IMG/VR virus record: IMGVR_UViG_3300048538_000331
Location: 1-56,779 of that record
From: a virus
DNA length: 56,779 nucleotides
Strand: one strand, 5' to 3'
Below, one piece after another: positions 28,039-56,779 of this stretch; position 1 is the stretch's first letter; each line of letters starts with the position of its first letter. The notes beneath the pieces were generated by a model. That model did no database searches and had not been told where the DNA came from. It saw only the letters and a program-made list of their open reading frames with translations. A program made the translations under genes and the position numbers.

Positions 28039-29742
28039 ATGGGTTATATATTAGGAATTAGTTGTGGTTATCACGATTCGGCCGCCTCTTTAATTAAAGA
28101 TGGAATTGTTTTAGGAGGATGTGAAGAAGAAAGATTTACAGGCATAAAACACGATTCATCCTTTCCACATAATACAATTAAGTGGTTATTAAAAGAATTT
28201 AATGTTACCAAAAATGATTTAGAAGCAATTTGTTTCTACGAATCTCCTATTGAAAAATTAGATAGGATTGAAACCTCTACAAAAAAAGGTGGAATACTAA
28301 ATTATTTTAACAGAAGAAATATTGTTAAAAGAAATACAATATCTTATCAAGATTTAATGTTAGATATTAATTCTTATGTTGGTAACAAAACAACTGTTTC
28401 TTTTTACGAACATCACTTATCTCATGCCGCATATTCCTATTATACTTCACCATATAATAATGCTATTATTGTTTCTGTTGATGGTGTTGGTGAGTGGGAA
28501 ACAACTACGATATATGAAGGAAATAGAAACACCTTAAAAAAATTAAAATCTATTAAATTCCCACATTCACTTGGAATGTTTTACTCAGCGATGACTGCTT
28601 TTCTTGGATTCAAACCAAACGAAGGTGAATATAAAATGATGGGATTGGCTCCATATGGAGATTCTTCTAAATACATAGATAGATTTTCTTCTATTATTGA
28701 AGATACTTATGATGGTGGTTTTAAATTAAACATGAAGTTTTTTACATACGAGTATTCAGATACACATATGTTTAATGAAAAACTTGGAATGGAACTTGGA
28801 ATAGAAAATAGATTACCCGAAGAACCACTAACACAACAACATAAAGATTTAGCGGCATCTGTACAATCTATTTACGAAAAATACTTTTTTAATTTAGTAA
28901 ATCATGCCTACGAACTTTCACCATCACGAAACTTATGTTTAAGTGGTGGGTGTGCTTATAATGGTACGGCTAATGGAAAGATATTAAAACAAACCTCATA
29001 TAATAATTTATGGATTCCACCTGCTCCATCTGATGCTGGTTCTTCTATTGGATGTGCTCTTCATCACTATTATACAAACAATGTATCGTTGAGAAAAATA
29101 AATACTAATCCATATCTTGGGCCAGAGTATTCTAAAACTGAAATTAAAAATGTAATAGATAGATATACTAAATATGTTTATGGTGAATATGTTTCTGATA
29201 TCAACTTGATAAAAAATATTTCAAAAGAAATTACTGATGGAAATATTATTGGTTGGTTTGAGGGTAGAATGGAATTTGGTGCAAGAGCATTAGGTAATCG
29301 TTCTATATTAGCAAACCCAAGAGACCCTCAAATGAAATCTCGACTAAATAAAATGATTAAGAAGAGAGAGGGGTTTAGACCATTTGCTCCAATAGTTAAA
29401 AAAGAATCACAAGTAAAATATTTTAAATATCAAAGAGTTGTTCCTTATATGAATCAAGTGGTTAAGGTTAAAGATGAATTTGTAAATAAACTTCCAGCTA
29501 TAACTCACATTGATAAATCAGCAAGAATACAGAGTTTAGATTCTAAATCTCAACCAAGAATATACTCCTTATTAGAACAACTTGAAAAGGATAATGAATA
29601 TCCAATTGTTATTAATACTTCATTCAACTTAAAAGACCAAACAATGGTTTTAACACCAGAGGATGCAATCAAAACATTTCTAAATTGTGAAATGGATATT
29701 TTAGTTCTTGGTAATTACATCTTGAAAAAAACTATTTTATGA
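28039..29742 (+). CDS. Carbamoyltransferase (NodU/CmcH family)
   Basis: A 567-aa enzyme with the family layout. The N-terminal YrdC/Kae1-like ATPase half begins LGISCGYHDSAASLI, with the metal/carbamoyl site HHLSHAAYSYY near residue 133. The C-terminal half has GARALGNRSILANPRD. It transfers a carbamoyl group from carbamoyl phosphate to hydroxyl or amino groups of sugars, antibiotics or nucleotides. Homologues occur in marine cyanophages, where the target is uncertain. It is followed by a terminator unit. Confidence 0.9.
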   Translation: MGYILGISCGYHDSAASLIKDGIVLGGCEEERFTGIKHDSSFPHNTIKWLLKEFNVTKNDLEAICFYESPIEKLDRIETSTKKGGILNYFNRRNIVKRNTISYQDLMLDINSYVGNKTTVSFYEHHLSHAAYSYYTSPYNNAIIVSVDGVGEWETTTIYEGNRNTLKKLKSIKFPHSLGMFYSAMTAFLGFKPNEGEYKMMGLAPYGDSSKYIDRFSSIIEDTYDGGFKLNMKFFTYEYSDTHMFNEKLGMELGIENRLPEEPLTQQHKDLAASVQSIYEKYFFNLVNHAYELSPSRNLCLSGGCAYNGTANGKILKQTSYNNLWIPPAPSDAGSSIGCALHHYYTNNVSLRKINTNPYLGPEYSKTEIKNVIDRYTKYVYGEYVSDINLIKNISKEITDGNIIGWFEGRMEFGARALGNRSILANPRDPQMKSRLNKMIKKREGFRPFAPIVKKESQVKYFKYQRVVPYMNQVVKVKDEFVNKLPAITHIDKSARIQSLDSKSQPRIYSLLEQLEKDNEYPIVINTSFNLKDQTMVLTPEDAIKTFLNCEMDILVLGNYILKKTIL

Positions 29743-49497: not shown

Positions 49498-50070
49498 TTG
49501 GGTTTACTTATTAATACCCATCATAAATGGGCTTTTGTTCATATTCCAAAAACAGGAGGCACAAGTTTGTCAAAAGTTTTGGCAAACATTCCAAATACTG
49601 CAAATCCTGCTGGTCACGATTCTCTAAGAATATTAGAGACTAACTTATCGGAATATTTTAAATTTACTCTTGTAAGAAATCCTTTTACAAGAATAGCATC
49701 AGCATACTTTCATGAAATTAGAAAAACAGGATATATGACTTTTGAATCTTTTTTAAAAAATTCGAATGAATATGATTTATGGTTTTTAAATCAAACTTAT
49801 TATACACATGAAGGATGTACAAACGATAAACACATGAATTATATTGGTAGATATGAAAACTACTCAAATGATGTTGAATACTTATTTAATAAAATAGGTA
49901 TAGATTCAAATATTCCTCATTTAAATCGTAATCCAATTTACGATAAACATCCAAACTTAGACCAACACAAATATTACAAGCATTTATATTCTGAGAAGTG
50001 GATGAAGGATTGGGTACGAGAGAGGTATTATAATGATTTCAAAATTTTTAACTATGGGATGGACATATAA
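49498..50070 (+). CDS. Sulfotransferase family protein
   Basis: A 190-aa protein of the Sulfotransfer_2 type. The PAPS 5'-phosphosulfate loop is HIPKTGGTSL (15-24) and the 3'-phosphate-binding segment is LVRNPFTRIASAYFHE (58-73, R60, S68). It transfers a sulfo group from PAPS to a sugar or other hydroxyl. In a phage it could sulfate a surface glycan or virion component. It starts with TTG at 49498, 10 nt after the small late gene, and its end overlaps the GIY-YIG gene. Confidence 0.82.
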   Translation: MGLLINTHHKWAFVHIPKTGGTSLSKVLANIPNTANPAGHDSLRILETNLSEYFKFTLVRNPFTRIASAYFHEIRKTGYMTFESFLKNSNEYDLWFLNQTYYTHEGCTNDKHMNYIGRYENYSNDVEYLFNKIGIDSNIPHLNRNPIYDKHPNLDQHKYYKHLYSEKWMKDWVRERYYNDFKIFNYGMDI

Positions 50071-50500
50071 CGGAAAATGTATAACAGAAATATCAGATAT
50101 GCCAGAAGGTACTATCGGATTCATATACAAAATTACAAATGGACAAACAGGTCAATATTATATAGGAAAAAAATCTCTATATTCACATAGAACTTTACCA
50201 CCACTAAAGGGTTACAAAAGAAAAAGAAAAGTAGTGAAAGAATCTAAGTGGCAAGATTATCGTTCATCTAATGCAAATGTACAACTTTGGTTTAGTGAAA
50301 ATGATAAAGCTTTGAATGAAGATAGAAGAAAAGATATTAATGATAGATTAGAATTAAGGATTCTTAGATTCTGTAAAGGTAAAAAATCCTTAACCTATTA
50401 TGAACTACAAGAACAATTCTCACATAATGTACTTGCAGACGAGTTATCTCTAAATGATAACTTATTAGGAAAGTTTTTTAGAAAAGACTTGGAAAATTAA
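50033..50500 (+). CDS. GIY-YIG nuclease domain protein
   Basis: A 155-aa protein. TIGFIYKITNGQTGQYYIGKK (about residues 27-47) is the GIY-YIG core, here GFIY and YYIG, followed by a basic segment (GYKRKRKVVKESKW). It may be a homing or junction nuclease. The first ATG overlaps the sulfotransferase by 38 nt; an in-frame ATG at 50054 (MGWTYNGKC) gives a shorter 17-nt overlap and 148 aa. Confidence 0.75.
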   Translation: MISKFLTMGWTYNGKCITEISDMPEGTIGFIYKITNGQTGQYYIGKKSLYSHRTLPPLKGYKRKRKVVKESKWQDYRSSNANVQLWFSENDKALNEDRRKDINDRLELRILRFCKGKKSLTYYELQEQFSHNVLADELSLNDNLLGKFFRKDLEN

Positions 50501-50519
50501 AATATTTTTTGTATATTTG
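50489..50519 (+). promoter_or_regulatory. Bacteroidota-type promoter P8
   Basis: TTG at 50489-50491, 20 nt, TATATTTG at 50512-50519, preceded by TTTTTT instead of TTTTCG. The ATG at 50524 is 4 nt after the box, so a leaderless transcript is predicted. Confidence 0.75.
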
Positions 50520-50523
50520 ATAT

Positions 50524-51279
50524 ATGGGTAAGAATACTTTAGTTGTAATGGGATGCTCTATGACAGAAGGTCAAGGATGTTGGGGTGATTTTAATAAACA
50601 CATCACAAAAGTTGATGATATCTTAAAACTAAGGAAAAAATATATTAATAGATTTTACGAATTTGGTTGGCCAAATATTGTAGCTAAAGAACTTGGATTT
50701 GATAAAGTAATAAATTTAGGTAAAATAGGAAGTTCAACATCAGGTCAACTAAAGTTTTTTAAAGAACAGAATTTTGGTAATGATAATGTATATATTATAT
50801 GGATGTTAACTGAGCCAATTCGGTTTTCTTTTTATAAAAAAGGAAAAATAAAAAACATTCATCCAGCTAAAGGAACACCTATTGGAAATTCCTATATAGA
50901 TTTTGTAGATGATATAACATTAGATTCGTGTCTTGAACAATTATTTTACATTAAGTGTATGAGAGATATTTCTAAATTGAATAACTATAATTTATTAATT
51001 ACACATTGGAACTCTGCATCTAAACACACTCAATCATTAGATGATGTTACTGATAACTATTTACACAAAGTTCCAACAACTATATTACCATCTAATAGAA
51101 AATTTATTTCAAATGTATGTGGTCATCCTAATGAATTGGGATATGATTGGATGGCAAAAACTATATTAAAAGAAATTAAAAATAATAATAAAAATTTTAT
51201 CATATCTGATAAAAAAGATAAATTAGAATATATTGCACCTGAACACAAATCATATACTATAAATAAAGAATTACTATAA
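50524..51279 (+). CDS. SGNH/GDSL hydrolase-like protein
   Basis: A 251-aa protein with the SGNH pattern: block I VVMGCSMTEGQG (Ser 12 as the nucleophile), a middle NLGKIGSSTSGQ segment with the oxyanion Gly, and block V GHPNELGYDW near residue 198 supplying the catalytic His. Such enzymes deacylate sugars or lipids. It lies within a cluster with sulfotransferase, GT25 and oxygenases. One base overlaps the next gene. Confidence 0.7.
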   Translation: MGKNTLVVMGCSMTEGQGCWGDFNKHITKVDDILKLRKKYINRFYEFGWPNIVAKELGFDKVINLGKIGSSTSGQLKFFKEQNFGNDNVYIIWMLTEPIRFSFYKKGKIKNIHPAKGTPIGNSYIDFVDDITLDSCLEQLFYIKCMRDISKLNNYNLLITHWNSASKHTQSLDDVTDNYLHKVPTTILPSNRKFISNVCGHPNELGYDWMAKTILKEIKNNNKNFIISDKKDKLEYIAPEHKSYTINKELL

Positions 51280-51809
51280 TGAGTGTTAAACAGATAAAAA
51301 ATATATTAAATTTAGATACGTTATCTATTATCAAAAAGAATAATAGGGATGTTTTTATTAAACAAATTAATAATCTTCAAAAAAGTAAAGAATTTTGGAA
51401 TTATAAAATAGTTCAATTTAGTAACGATGTATCAATATATAACTTACCAACAGATAGTTTAGAATTTGATTTAATAAAAAAAGATATAGATAAATTAAAT
51501 TTAGAGGTTAATATACAAGGAATAATGTATTACTATTGGCAACCTGGTTCATATATTCCATGGCATAACGATGGTATCTACTCTAATTCTATTACTATAT
51601 ACTTAAATAATAAATGGGATTATAGTGAAGGTGGTTTATTTTTATACAAAGATGGAAACGATATTAAAACTATAATACCAAGTGATAACTTAGGAGTTAT
51701 TCAAACGGGTGGTGTTGAACACTCTACAACAATAACAAACACAGAATCCCCAATTAGAAAAACTATTCAAATATTTTTAAACGATAAAAAACATAATACA
51801 CTATTGTGA
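51279..51809 (+). CDS. 2OG-Fe(II) oxygenase
   Basis: A 176-aa protein with a canonical iron site: HxD at H96/D98 (IPWHNDGI), distal H148 (GVEHSTTI) and R160 (PIRKTIQIFL). The first about 70 residues are helical. Substrate unknown; it is translationally coupled to the SGNH-like gene upstream and the GT25-like gene downstream, so it may act on the same glycan or protein. Confidence 0.8.
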   Translation: MSVKQIKNILNLDTLSIIKKNNRDVFIKQINNLQKSKEFWNYKIVQFSNDVSIYNLPTDSLEFDLIKKDIDKLNLEVNIQGIMYYYWQPGSYIPWHNDGIYSNSITIYLNNKWDYSEGGLFLYKDGNDIKTIIPSDNLGVIQTGGVEHSTTITNTESPIRKTIQIFLNDKKHNTLL

Positions 51810-52531
51810 AAACATTTATAATCAGAATAAGTAGTAATGAAGATTCAGTTAGGTCTGTAAAACAAACAATCCAAAGTGCAAAAGATGTAGGATATAAAGA
51901 ATCAATTGAAATATTTGAAGCAATTAAACCAACTGAGTGGAAAGAGATTCTACCATATGAAAATACGTTTCATAATTACGAAAGACCAGATAATGTTGGT
52001 GCTTGTTTTGCTTCTCATTATTTGTTGTGGAAAGAGTGTATAAAGTTAAATGAACCTATATTAATATTAGAACATGATGCAATATTCAAAAGTAATATAC
52101 CTGATATAGATTTCAATATGTGTGTTAACTTTGGTAGACCGAGTTACATTAGACCTCATCATATGATTTATGAAGAACCAAAAGATGGATTAAATTGGCC
52201 AAATCAAGTTAACTTCTTAGGTCATCATGCATATGCAATTAAACCAAATGCAGCTAAAATATTCTGTGAAGATGTAAAGAAAAGAACTTTATCTGCAAAT
52301 GATGTATGGATTGAAAGAGTAACATATCCATGGTTAGAAGAATATAGACCATTCCCCATTTGGGCAGATACTGATTTCTCTACTATACAAACGATGTTAC
52401 CAGATGAAAACCCACTAAAACAAAAATATGATGAAATTACTGATGTTAATAGTCCTTATTACGATTATTTAATGAAACATTTTTCTCATGTTCTAAAAGG
52501 ACCACAATCAGAAAGACATATAGATATATGA
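51806..52531 (+). CDS. Glycosyltransferase family 25-like protein
   Basis: A 241-aa protein. The segment NVGACFASHYLLWKECIKLNEPILILEHDAIF (about residues 63-94) has the GT25 signature: a conserved CxxSH helix, then a strand ending in the metal-binding EHDA (EDD in many family members). The GT25 family includes LPS galactosyltransferases and collagen-modifying enzymes; the acceptor here is unknown. It starts with GTG overlapping the oxygenase stop by 4 nt. Confidence 0.75.
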   Translation: MKTFIIRISSNEDSVRSVKQTIQSAKDVGYKESIEIFEAIKPTEWKEILPYENTFHNYERPDNVGACFASHYLLWKECIKLNEPILILEHDAIFKSNIPDIDFNMCVNFGRPSYIRPHHMIYEEPKDGLNWPNQVNFLGHHAYAIKPNAAKIFCEDVKKRTLSANDVWIERVTYPWLEEYRPFPIWADTDFSTIQTMLPDENPLKQKYDEITDVNSPYYDYLMKHFSHVLKGPQSERHIDI

Positions 52532-53064
52532 TATTAGAAAAAAATATATTATCTAAGAGTGAATGTGATTTGTTTATAGAAAGAGCAACACTAAAAGGAT
52601 TTAAAAATAGTTTAATTGGTGATGGAAACGAAAATTCTAATATAAGAACTTCCTATGAGGTAAATTTAGATATAGATGATGTAGTTGGTAATCTATTATT
52701 AAATAAATTAAATGAGTTTAATATTACATCACTACCAAAGTATCTAAAAGTAATAAAATACACTAAAGGTTCTTTTTTTAAAAAACATAAAGATACCTAC
52801 GATGATGTAAAAAATCGTAAAAGGTATAAAACAATGGTTTTACAACTATCTAATACTGCGGATTATCAAGGAGGTGATTTGAAGGTTTATACTGACTTGA
52901 GTAAAGATATATATTTCCCTATATCAAGACAACAGGGTTCGGTTTCTATATTTCCAAGTGATTTTACACATGAGGTTTTGGAAATTATTGACGGAATTAG
53001 GTACACTATTGTTATGTGGTTAGAATCAGATAATTTTGATAGTAATAAAAAAATATTAATATAA
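52528..53064 (+). CDS. 2OG-Fe(II) oxygenase (prolyl 4-hydroxylase-like)
   Basis: A 178-aa oxygenase. HxD at H87/D89 (KKHKDTYD), distal H148 (DFTHEVLEI) and R158 (GIRYTIVMW). The layout is like the 165-aa enzyme at 236, so the two may be distant paralogues. It overlaps the GT25-like gene by 4 nt and is followed by promoter P9. GT25 and lysyl/prolyl hydroxylases are paired in collagen modification, so hydroxylation followed by glycosylation of a phage protein is a testable idea. Confidence 0.82.
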   Translation: MILEKNILSKSECDLFIERATLKGFKNSLIGDGNENSNIRTSYEVNLDIDDVVGNLLLNKLNEFNITSLPKYLKVIKYTKGSFFKKHKDTYDDVKNRKRYKTMVLQLSNTADYQGGDLKVYTDLSKDIYFPISRQQGSVSIFPSDFTHEVLEIIDGIRYTIVMWLESDNFDSNKKILI

Positions 53065-53116: not shown

Positions 53117-54061
53117 ATGCTTTCACATCACGAGAAACAAGAGGTTATAAACATATTAAATGATGTTTTGGGTGTTGGTACATCGATGAAAAACGATGAA
53201 CAAGCACACCATTGTCCATTCTGCCATCATCACAAGAAAAAGTTACAAGTTAATTTAAAAACACAATATTGGCATTGTTGGGTTTGTGATGCAAAAGGAA
53301 GAAAGATACAGAGGTTACTTAAAAGACTTCATGTAGATTCTCGTAAATTAAAGAAAATATATGAAATCTATGGAGATGATTATGTTGTATATTCAAAAGA
53401 AACTGAAGAAGAGAAGGTTGAGTTACGATTACCAAGTGAATTTAAATCACTTTTAAAAGTACCAACAGGTAAAGTAAAACCTGTGTACAGAAAAGCTCTT
53501 AGGTATGCTGAAGATAGAGGTATTACTAAAGAAGATATTACAAGATATAATATCGGTTATTGTGATACTGGTATGTATTCCAATCGTATTATTATTCCAT
53601 CTTATGATTCTGATAACAGACTCAATTACTTCATCGCACGTTCTATACACTCTGAAGAAAAGTTTAAGTATAAGAATCCGCCAGTTTCGAAAAATGTTAT
53701 TATGTTTGAAAACCAAATAAATTGGAACGAACCAATAACATTAGTTGAGGGTGTATTTGATGCAATGGCGGTAAAAAGAAATGCTATTCCTATACTTGGT
53801 AAATTTATTCCAAAAACTTTAAATGATACTATATATAAAAAGGGTGTTGAAAGTATCAATATATTATTGGATGGGGATGCTCAAGACCAGGCTTTATACT
53901 ACACTATGCAATTCCAAAATCAAGGAATCACTACAAAAAATATTAAACCCACAGATAAAGATGCATCTGAAATGGGGTTCACAGAAGTAAATAATAAATT
54001 AAAAGAATCTAAGAAAACAGGATTCGGTGATATTATATCACAAAAACTAAAAGGTTTATGA
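53117..54061 (+). CDS. 61: DNA primase (gp61/DnaG-like)
   Basis: A 314-aa primase with an N-terminal zinc ribbon (C33, C36, C54, C57, in HHCPFCHHHKKK and WHCWVCDAKGRK) and a TOPRIM core: E211 in LVEGVFDAMAV and D252/D254 in ILLDGDAQD. It makes RNA primers for lagging-strand synthesis and works with the replicative helicase, which is not in this window. Its stop overlaps the next start by 3 nt. Confidence 0.9.
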   Translation: MLSHHEKQEVINILNDVLGVGTSMKNDEQAHHCPFCHHHKKKLQVNLKTQYWHCWVCDAKGRKIQRLLKRLHVDSRKLKKIYEIYGDDYVVYSKETEEEKVELRLPSEFKSLLKVPTGKVKPVYRKALRYAEDRGITKEDITRYNIGYCDTGMYSNRIIIPSYDSDNRLNYFIARSIHSEEKFKYKNPPVSKNVIMFENQINWNEPITLVEGVFDAMAVKRNAIPILGKFIPKTLNDTIYKKGVESINILLDGDAQDQALYYTMQFQNQGITTKNIKPTDKDASEMGFTEVNNKLKESKKTGFGDIISQKLKGL

Positions 54062-56779
54062 TAATAAATAAGGTTTACCACCTTGCAGATTTACACATTA
54101 GAAATCTACAAAGGCACAAAGAATACAAACAAGTATTTAAAAAATTCCTAAAACAAGTTAAAGAAGATAAAATTGAGGATTCCCTCATTTATATTGCTGG
54201 TGATATTGCTCATGCTAAAACTGAGATGTCACCTGAACTCGTACACGAAATAAGTTGGTTTCTCACCGAGTGTGCGAAGTTAAGAGAAACTGTGTTAATC
54301 ACAGGTAATCATGATTGTAATTTAAATAATTCCCACAGACTAGATGTACTCACACCTATTATCGAAAATCTTGGAAATAATCGAATTCATTATCTTCGTG
54401 ATACTGGTGTCTATAATATCCATAATCTTACTTTTGTTGTTTATTCTATATTGGATGACAAAGAAAATTGGCCTAAAGGAGATACCATTGATGGAGAAAA
54501 TAAAATCGTTTTATTCCATGGACCAGTAAACAAAGCTCAAACAGATATCGGCTATACCGTTTCTTCAAACTCATTCCAAGTGGATATGTTTGATGGATTC
54601 GATATGGCCATGTTGGGTGATATCCACAAAAGACAAACATTCGGACCTGGTTATGAACACATTGCTTATGCTGGTTCTATGATTCAACAAAATCATGGTG
54701 AGTTATTAGAGAATCATGGATATCTACTTTGGGATATTCCAACAAGAACTTTTACAGAACATCATCTACATAATGATTATGGATTCTTAACAGTTGATGT
54801 AGTTGATGGTAAGATACCTCAATGGGTGTATGATGAGGTTGGTACTAAACTTCCAAAGTATCCAAGATTAAGATTACGATTTACAAGAACAGAAGCTTCT
54901 GATATGAAAAGAAGAATAACTGAACTAAAGAAGTTATTCAAAGTTGCTGAAGTTACTGTAACGAGAACCGATACAATAGGACAACTAAAAACAAATCAAA
55001 AGGTAAACAAAAACATCGTTGGTAATGTTAAAGATGAAACATTCCAAAACTCCTTAATACGAGATTACTTAGAAAGACAATATTTGTTAGAAGATGAGGA
55101 GTTAGATAAGATAGCAGAAATTAACTCAGAGTTAAATGGACAGATAGATGATTCAGATTCAATAGGTAACATCTTATGGACACCGAAAGAGTTTCAGTTT
55201 TCTAATATGTTTTCATATGGTGAGGATAACAAAGTAAGGTTTAATAAAGCTCAAGGTATCGTTGGTATCTTCGCTCCAAATGCCTCTGGTAAATCCTCTC
55301 TCTTCGATGCATTATCATTTTGTATCTATGATAAGACTTCTCGTACAAACATCTCTAAGAACATCTTAAATAATCGTAAAACAAACTTCTATTGTAAGTT
55401 TAACTTCGAGATAGATGGAATTGATTATTATATCGAAAGAAGAGCTAAATATGTTAGGAGACAAACATCGGTAAAGGTGGATGTAGATTTTTGGAGAGAT
55501 AACAATGGAGTTATAGAATCACTTAATGGAGAACAACGAAAAGATACTAATAAGGAAATAGAAAAGTACTTAGGTAAGTTCGAGGACTTTGTTTTAACTG
55601 CTCTTTCTCTACAAGGAAATAACGCACTCTTTATAGATAAATCACAATCGGAAAGAAAAGAAATACTTTCTCAATTCATTGGTGTAAACATCTTTGATAA
55701 ATTATATCAAAAGGCTGCTGATGAGAATAGGGATAATGCAACACTTATCAGAAAATTTAAGAGTGATGATTTTACGACAAAATTAGCGGAAATCGACACT
55801 GATTTAAAAACAAACAAAAATGATTATAAACTTTTAGAGATAAATCAAAAAGCTTTAAAAGACGAAGAAGATGTGTTGAACAAAAGGATTATATCCCTAA
55901 ACGAGAAAATCGTTAAGTTGAATGCTGATAGTGGGGTTTCGATTGAAGAGTTAGAAAAAAGATTGAAAAACCTCGAAACCAAAAAGGATGGGGTTTCAAC
56001 CACAAAAAGTTCGGTTCAAGAAAGAATCACCTTTAGGGAAGAACTACAAATTACTTTAGAAGAAATCTTAGATAAGTTTGATGAAGAAGATTTAGAAGAA
56101 GGAATTACAAAATTAAAAAGATTAAGAAAGAATTTATCTAATATTGATTCTGAAATAGAAAAAATTAATATTAAGTTAGAATCTTTATACGAAAGAAAAC
56201 AGCACTTAGATTCACACAAATATAATGAGGATTGTGATATTTGTATGGAAAATTCTAAATCTATTTTAGATACAAAATCTGAAGTAGAATCAAAGATAAA
56301 GGAGTTGGAAGAATCTTTACAACACAATGAAAAAGAAAAGTTAGATTTAAACATTGAGATTGATTCTTTGAAAGGATATGAGGATGAGTGGGATAAGTAT
56401 AAAGATGCTAAAGATAAAGAGGATAAATTAGATAGAGAAATATCCCAACTTATCAACAAGTTATCAACAACCGAAACTGAAGAAATCCGTTTAGATACAC
56501 AAATTACTCAACAGCAACAACTTATCAAAGAATATTATAAGAATGAGAAACAAATTCAGAAGAATAAAGAAATCAGAGATGAGATTAGTGGAGTAAGAGA
56601 AAAACTTACAATTGTTAAAGATGAACTTAAAGGATACAATACAGATATCCTTAAATTAAATGGTAAAGTATCAGCATTACAGAATCAGAAAGAAACTATT
56701 GAAGATAGAATCAATGAGGTTAAGGATATGGAATCTCAAAGTAGATTATTTGATTTTTACTTAAATGCTCTTTCTAAAG
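54058..56779 (+). CDS. Fused Mre11/gp47 nuclease and Rad50/gp46 ATPase (partial, runs off the window)
   Basis: One open frame of at least 907 codons, with no stop to the window end. Residues 1 to about 355 are an Mre11/SbcD/gp47-type nuclease: DLH at 11-13, GD at 48-49, GNHD at 83-86, FHG at 153-155 and GDIH at 187-190. From about residue 373 the sequence is Rad50/SbcC/gp46-like: Walker A APNASGKSS at 406-414, a long coiled coil and a zinc-hook CDIC (C726, C729). The C-terminal ATPase half lies outside the window. T4 and most relatives encode these as two genes. It processes double-strand ends for recombination-dependent replication. Confidence 0.88.
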   Translation, partial: MIINKVYHLADLHIRNLQRHKEYKQVFKKFLKQVKEDKIEDSLIYIAGDIAHAKTEMSPELVHEISWFLTECAKLRETVLITGNHDCNLNNSHRLDVLTPIIENLGNNRIHYLRDTGVYNIHNLTFVVYSILDDKENWPKGDTIDGENKIVLFHGPVNKAQTDIGYTVSSNSFQVDMFDGFDMAMLGDIHKRQTFGPGYEHIAYAGSMIQQNHGELLENHGYLLWDIPTRTFTEHHLHNDYGFLTVDVVDGKIPQWVYDEVGTKLPKYPRLRLRFTRTEASDMKRRITELKKLFKVAEVTVTRTDTIGQLKTNQKVNKNIVGNVKDETFQNSLIRDYLERQYLLEDEELDKIAEINSELNGQIDDSDSIGNILWTPKEFQFSNMFSYGEDNKVRFNKAQGIVGIFAPNASGKSSLFDALSFCIYDKTSRTNISKNILNNRKTNFYCKFNFEIDGIDYYIERRAKYVRRQTSVKVDVDFWRDNNGVIESLNGEQRKDTNKEIEKYLGKFEDFVLTALSLQGNNALFIDKSQSERKEILSQFIGVNIFDKLYQKAADENRDNATLIRKFKSDDFTTKLAEIDTDLKTNKNDYKLLEINQKALKDEEDVLNKRIISLNEKIVKLNADSGVSIEELEKRLKNLETKKDGVSTTKSSVQERITFREELQITLEEILDKFDEEDLEEGITKLKRLRKNLSNIDSEIEKINIKLESLYERKQHLDSHKYNEDCDICMENSKSILDTKSEVESKIKELEESLQHNEKEKLDLNIEIDSLKGYEDEWDKYKDAKDKEDKLDREISQLINKLSTTETEEIRLDTQITQQQQLIKEYYKNEKQIQKNKEIRDEISGVREKLTIVKDELKGYNTDILKLNGKVSALQNQKETIEDRINEVKDMESQSRLFDFYLNALSK

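Follow-up and report, generated by a model that had tools for sequence, protein, structure and literature searches.

Mre11-type nucleases and Rad50-type ATPases are encoded in T4 (gp47/gp46), T5-like and SPO1-like phages by nearby genes lying in the same order, as two polypeptides whose zinc hook is mostly CPxC. The chains are also separate in E. coli SbcCD and archaeal Mre11-Rad50. Yoshida, Claverie & Ogata (Virol J 2011, PMC3175470) have described the fusion of the two enzymes in Mimivirus R555 and twelve other proteins, one of them from Bacillus phage 0305phi8-36; the reported fusions also include ones from bacteria, bacterial plasmids and eukaryotes, and from aquatic viral metagenomes. In that work R555 homologues were abundant in aquatic viral metagenomes and some were argued to be phage-derived; phage primases were among the genes on the aquatic phage-like scaffolds that carried them, and the fusion itself was confirmed in only a few long metagenomic sequences. 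R555 departs from the canonical active site at two points (PMC3175470): motif II contains a His, and in motif V the first His has become an Asp. A literature search, with most subscription journals outside its scope, found no later study devoted to phage fusions.

The window analysed here, that is, the whole stretch of DNA, is an IMG/VR viral contig of 56,779 bases; it comes from a tailed aquatic phage that is uncultured and carries T4-like genes. It encodes baseplate wedge and helicase genes, three tRNA genes and, in its last part, the following features:

53117-54061, plus strand: phage DNA primase (phrog_47, 1.3e-51).
54058-56779, plus strand: Mre11-Rad50 fusion gene, 5' 907 codons, continuing past the contig end (1052 aa in the relative L003).
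54058-54762, plus strand: Mre11-type calcineurin-like phosphoesterase core, residues 1-235 (D11/H13, D49, N84/H85, H154, D188/H190).
54763-55032, plus strand: Mre11 capping domain, about residues 236-325 (AlphaFold2 model; by analogy to T. maritima Mre11, described in PMC3175470).
55033-55146, plus strand: helix-loop-helix equivalent to the C-terminal Rad50-binding element of Mre11, residues 326-363 (AlphaFold2 model; conserved in relatives).
55147-55179, plus strand: short, poorly conserved interdomain linker, about residues 364-374 (relatives, AlphaFold2 model, pN/pS).
55180-55737, plus strand: Rad50 N-lobe, residues 375-560 (Pfam AAA_23, 6e-11; Rad50 matches in the PDB).
55738-56772, plus strand: antiparallel coiled coil with the CxxC zinc hook C726/C729, residues 561-905 (relatives, model, motif positions).

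Translation of the frame at 54058-56779 gives 907 open codons up to the contig end, the uninterrupted run that the initial annotation had reported, whereas stop-free runs reached at most 110 codons in 300 shuffles of these bases. The Rad50 C-lobe falls off the contig, and the protein was completed with the relative L003 (IMGVR_UViG_3300017710_002137), which is 100% identical across the 907 residues, and in its coding bases, and continues to a full length of 1052 aa. The C-terminal ATPase half that the annotation had proposed to look for beyond the window is present there: L003 adds the Rad50 signature CSGMERF (about residues 963-969), Walker B VIDEG at 992-996 (within VIDEGFG), the D-loop GTLD and the switch histidine H1027. 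With the first strand of the N-lobe at residue 375, Walker A APNASGKS at 406-413 and the Q-loop Q519 in the window, the Rad50/SbcC motif set is complete, its signature reading SGME as against SGGE. The Walker A and the CDIC zinc hook that had been read at 406-414 and 726-729 were found at 406-413 and as C726-D-I-C729. Domain order and the single frame agree with the proposal of a nuclease at the N-terminus of the ATPase in one polypeptide, and at the level of sequence the gene is confirmed as such a fusion, from which a fixed 1:1 ratio of nuclease to ATPase would follow.

All five phosphoesterase motifs lie between residues 11 and 190 where they had been placed (D11-x-H13, G48-D49, N84-H85-D86, H154 and G187-D188-I-H190), although motif V departs from the canonical GHxH and reads GDIH. 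Among 39 close relatives the nuclease ligands, including those of motifs I-IV typical of Mre11/SbcD (D11, H13, D49, N84, H85, H154), are invariant, as are Walker A, the signature, Walker B and the hook cysteines C726 and C729. The protein shares with R555 the order Mre11, helix-loop-helix, short linker and Rad50 within a single open frame, the GDxxH of motif II and the His-to-Asp change in motif V; its linker of about eleven residues falls within the 9-12 or so that separate the domains in R555-like proteins. It differs from R555 in length (1052 versus 1351 aa) and in being encoded by a tailed phage and not a giant virus. The window protein is thus of the R555-like fused kind, an ordinary addition to a described class, and the earlier suggestion that such a fusion might be undescribed does not stand, since the class was published in 2011 (PMC3175470) and another member is deposited in Microcystis phage Mel-JY01. 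The latter (WWT39521.1, 'AAA domain containing protein') is fused, about 37% identical over its full length, and carries the same motifs. Mel-JY01, a cultured freshwater cyanophage, also shares with the window the order GIY-YIG-like gene, primase, fusion. In Mel-JY01 primase and fusion are separated by a 174-base ORF, whereas in the window the primase is directly upstream and overlaps the fusion start by 4 bases (ATGA); the window, unlike Mel-JY01, has four further genes between the GIY-YIG-like gene and the primase.

AlphaFold2, run with 39 relatives, returned a moderate model (pLDDT 70.5, pTM 0.39) that shows the Mre11 core, the capping domain, a two-helix element at 327-362 (helices 327-342 and 346-362, the helix-loop-helix), the short linker, the Rad50 lobes and the antiparallel coiled coil. 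At these scores the modelled placement of the two halves relative to each other should not be trusted and, because the model is only moderate, any docking of the nuclease on its own head is tentative. Foldseek matched both solved Rad50 and solved Mre11 chains, and both enzymes were recovered in the PDB by sequence profile as well as by fold (matches 6s6v, 3aux, 3tho, 3qg5); the likeness to E. coli SbcCD and archaeal Mre11-Rad50 extends to fold and ATPase motifs. Among predicted viral structures the top full-length fold matches came from giant viruses (Tupanvirus, Harvfovirus, Yasminevirus, Catovirus); proteins of Tenacibaculum phages pT24 and PTm1 also ranked high. The first-ranked of the giant-virus matches are annotated as DNA repair exonucleases, and the Tupanvirus protein is about 25% identical in the fold alignment.

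We consider it very probable that the gene encodes a single-chain Mre11-Rad50 (SbcD-SbcC / gp47-gp46) enzyme of the R555-like kind, used by an aquatic tailed phage to resect ends for recombination-dependent replication. The fusion most likely replaces T4 gp46/gp47, whose role is summarised in PMC3175470 and likewise in the T4 record. Homology to gp46/gp47 suggests that it most likely resects DNA ends into 3' single strands for recombination-dependent replication and repair; an ATP-regulated, Mn-dependent nuclease activity is predicted. ATP would drive two Rad50 heads, linked through the CxxC hook, to dimerise and clamp DNA ends; the two attached Mre11 domains could then trim or nick the end and expose a 3' single strand, to be taken by a phage UvsX-type recombinase for recombination-dependent replication and break repair. 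In this scheme we infer the nuclease activity, the resection role and the docking partner of nuclease and head. The profile phrog_97, which we take to be a UvsX-like recombinase, matches Mel-JY01 and, of seven IMG/VR relatives, the four largest; the window gave no match, nor did the other three relatives, which may be fragments.

Two viral scans gave 107 and at least 593 confirmed relatives. The nuclease domain was present in 165 fetched loci, a partly overlapping set that holds 117 distinct proteins; in 164 of these loci nuclease and ATPase share a single unbroken frame, and fused relatives extend down to 25% identity. The sole exception, LR756508, is split by an inserted endonuclease gene. 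In this record (LR756508.1, a 484-kb uncultured phage; L083:4950-9175) a 305-aa ORF interrupts the fusion gene shortly 3' of motif V (GDIHKRQ). The ORF encodes a TnsA-like endonuclease domain (PF08722, 5.8e-6), and the arrangement resembles a homing-endonuclease or intron insertion; an Rfam search of the interrupted gene matched no intron model. Median dN/dS was 0.04-0.08 in the nuclease, cap, helix-loop-helix and Rad50 lobes, 0.11 in the linker and 0.17 in the coiled coil, rough values because synonymous sites are near saturation; on these ratios all regions of the fusion are under purifying selection.

The frame could also yield free Rad50 beside the fusion, by translation from an internal start ahead of the Rad50 domain or by cleavage within the linker. 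The linker (364-374) does have the highest pN/pS of all regions and low confidence in the AlphaFold2 model, but no conserved start codon preceded by an SD-like site was found upstream of residue 375 in twelve relatives, and the sole conserved methionine, Met384, lies in the first-strand region inside the Rad50 domain. The internal start, which the initial annotation had named as evidence against its own reading, is thus without support in the relatives examined, and we regard a second product as improbable.

Marginally less probable still is a fused SMC-like protein whose nuclease is degenerate and which serves some other purpose, such as structural bridging or anti-defence. The GDIH of motif V is family-wide, found by pattern in 164 of the 165 loci (in the remaining locus GSVH was matched first, and GDIH is present as well); an Asp replaces the canonical His metal ligand and nuclease activity could therefore be altered. 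Fold matches also include SMC-type defence proteins (Lamassu, JetABCD). However, the other nuclease ligands are invariant, the nuclease is under strong purifying selection, and the same His-to-Asp change occurs in R555 (PMC3175470). Moreover, since the separate nucleases of T5-like phages have GDLH, the departure is, by sequence comparison, a known variant and not grounds for exclusion from the Mre11/SbcD nucleases.

That adjacent mre11 and rad50 genes merely look fused through a frameshift or stop lost in assembly or sequencing, as may have happened in Listeria phage LMTA-57 (an annotated fusion, against two genes in A511), is next to impossible and is refuted by the independent contigs: the stop or frameshift sought at residues 340-375 was not found, the fused frame recurs across loci and proteins down to the most divergent relatives, neither stop nor start is conserved at the junction, and the junction evolves as protein. 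LMTA-57 (L178:1855-4884) has one annotated 1009-aa Mre11-Rad50 protein where A511 (L169:1854-4884) has a pair of genes. The two stretches share 97.6% identity, and their lengths differ by a single A in an A-run at the junction, so the LMTA-57 gene either fused very recently or reflects a sequencing error.

The single-chain Mre11-Rad50 enzyme appears to be the only copy in most genomes searched. Ten of eleven family records, several of which may be fragments, have a single Rad50-type AAA_23 match, located in the fused frame or, for LR756508, in the ATPase piece, and the profile found no second Rad50 copy in these ten. LR756501 (735 kb) has two additional AAA_23 matches, and larger relatives have extra Metallophos matches in frames of about 190-490 aa. 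Several large aquatic phages thus appear to rely on the fusion alone.

In a midpoint-rooted concatenated-domain tree with ten separate-gene phages, the sampled phage fusions group as a single clade (UFBoot 100), apart from the T4, T5-like and SPO1-like proteins; the tree left out R555 and the giant-virus and Bacillus phage fusions, and says nothing on a single origin of all fusions. The two LR756508 gene pieces were kept apart and excluded from it. Identity to the T4, T5-like and SPO1-like proteins is 12-21% for the nuclease; for the ATPase N-lobe it is 20-28%. Most sampled fusions combine GDIH with hooks such as CDIC or CKFC, whereas the separate phage proteins mostly have CPxC and GHxH. Neither type is a strict marker of fusion: GDLH occurs in T5-like nucleases, and the hook of the distant fusion LR756501 is CVTC. 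It is conceivable, though we lean against it, that the fusions are an abundant aquatic-phage clade of single origin, in which a one-chain enzyme with GDIH and a non-proline hook wholly replaced gp46/gp47 and whose fused ancestor was common with that of the giant-virus R555 genes.

Phage-borne sequences of the fusion class were mostly fragmentary in the 2011 metagenomes, and complete ones add to it here. The understanding of the Mre11-Rad50 enzyme is unchanged by this fusion; a single chain of about 1050 residues could suit structural work.

Beyond viral records, the plasmid collection gave weak ATPase-only matches and nothing more, and the genome collection gave the fusion on three contigs of metagenome-assembled genomes, plus one weak ATPase match. 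The three (L086, L087 and L088; 39-41% identity) lie in genomes labelled Nitrosopelagicus, Chloroflexi and Gammaproteobacteria, and are possibly misbinned phage or hints of hosts.

Elsewhere in the window, the stretch before the primase (49498-53064) encodes a sulfotransferase (PF03567), a GT25 glycosyltransferase (PF01755) and a 2OG-Fe(II) oxygenase (PF13640), with a homing-endonuclease-like ORF at 50033-50500 within this cluster. A Nol-like carbamoyltransferase (phrog_1601) at 28039-29742 is closest to genes of Pelagibacter phage HTVC008M and of cyanophages.
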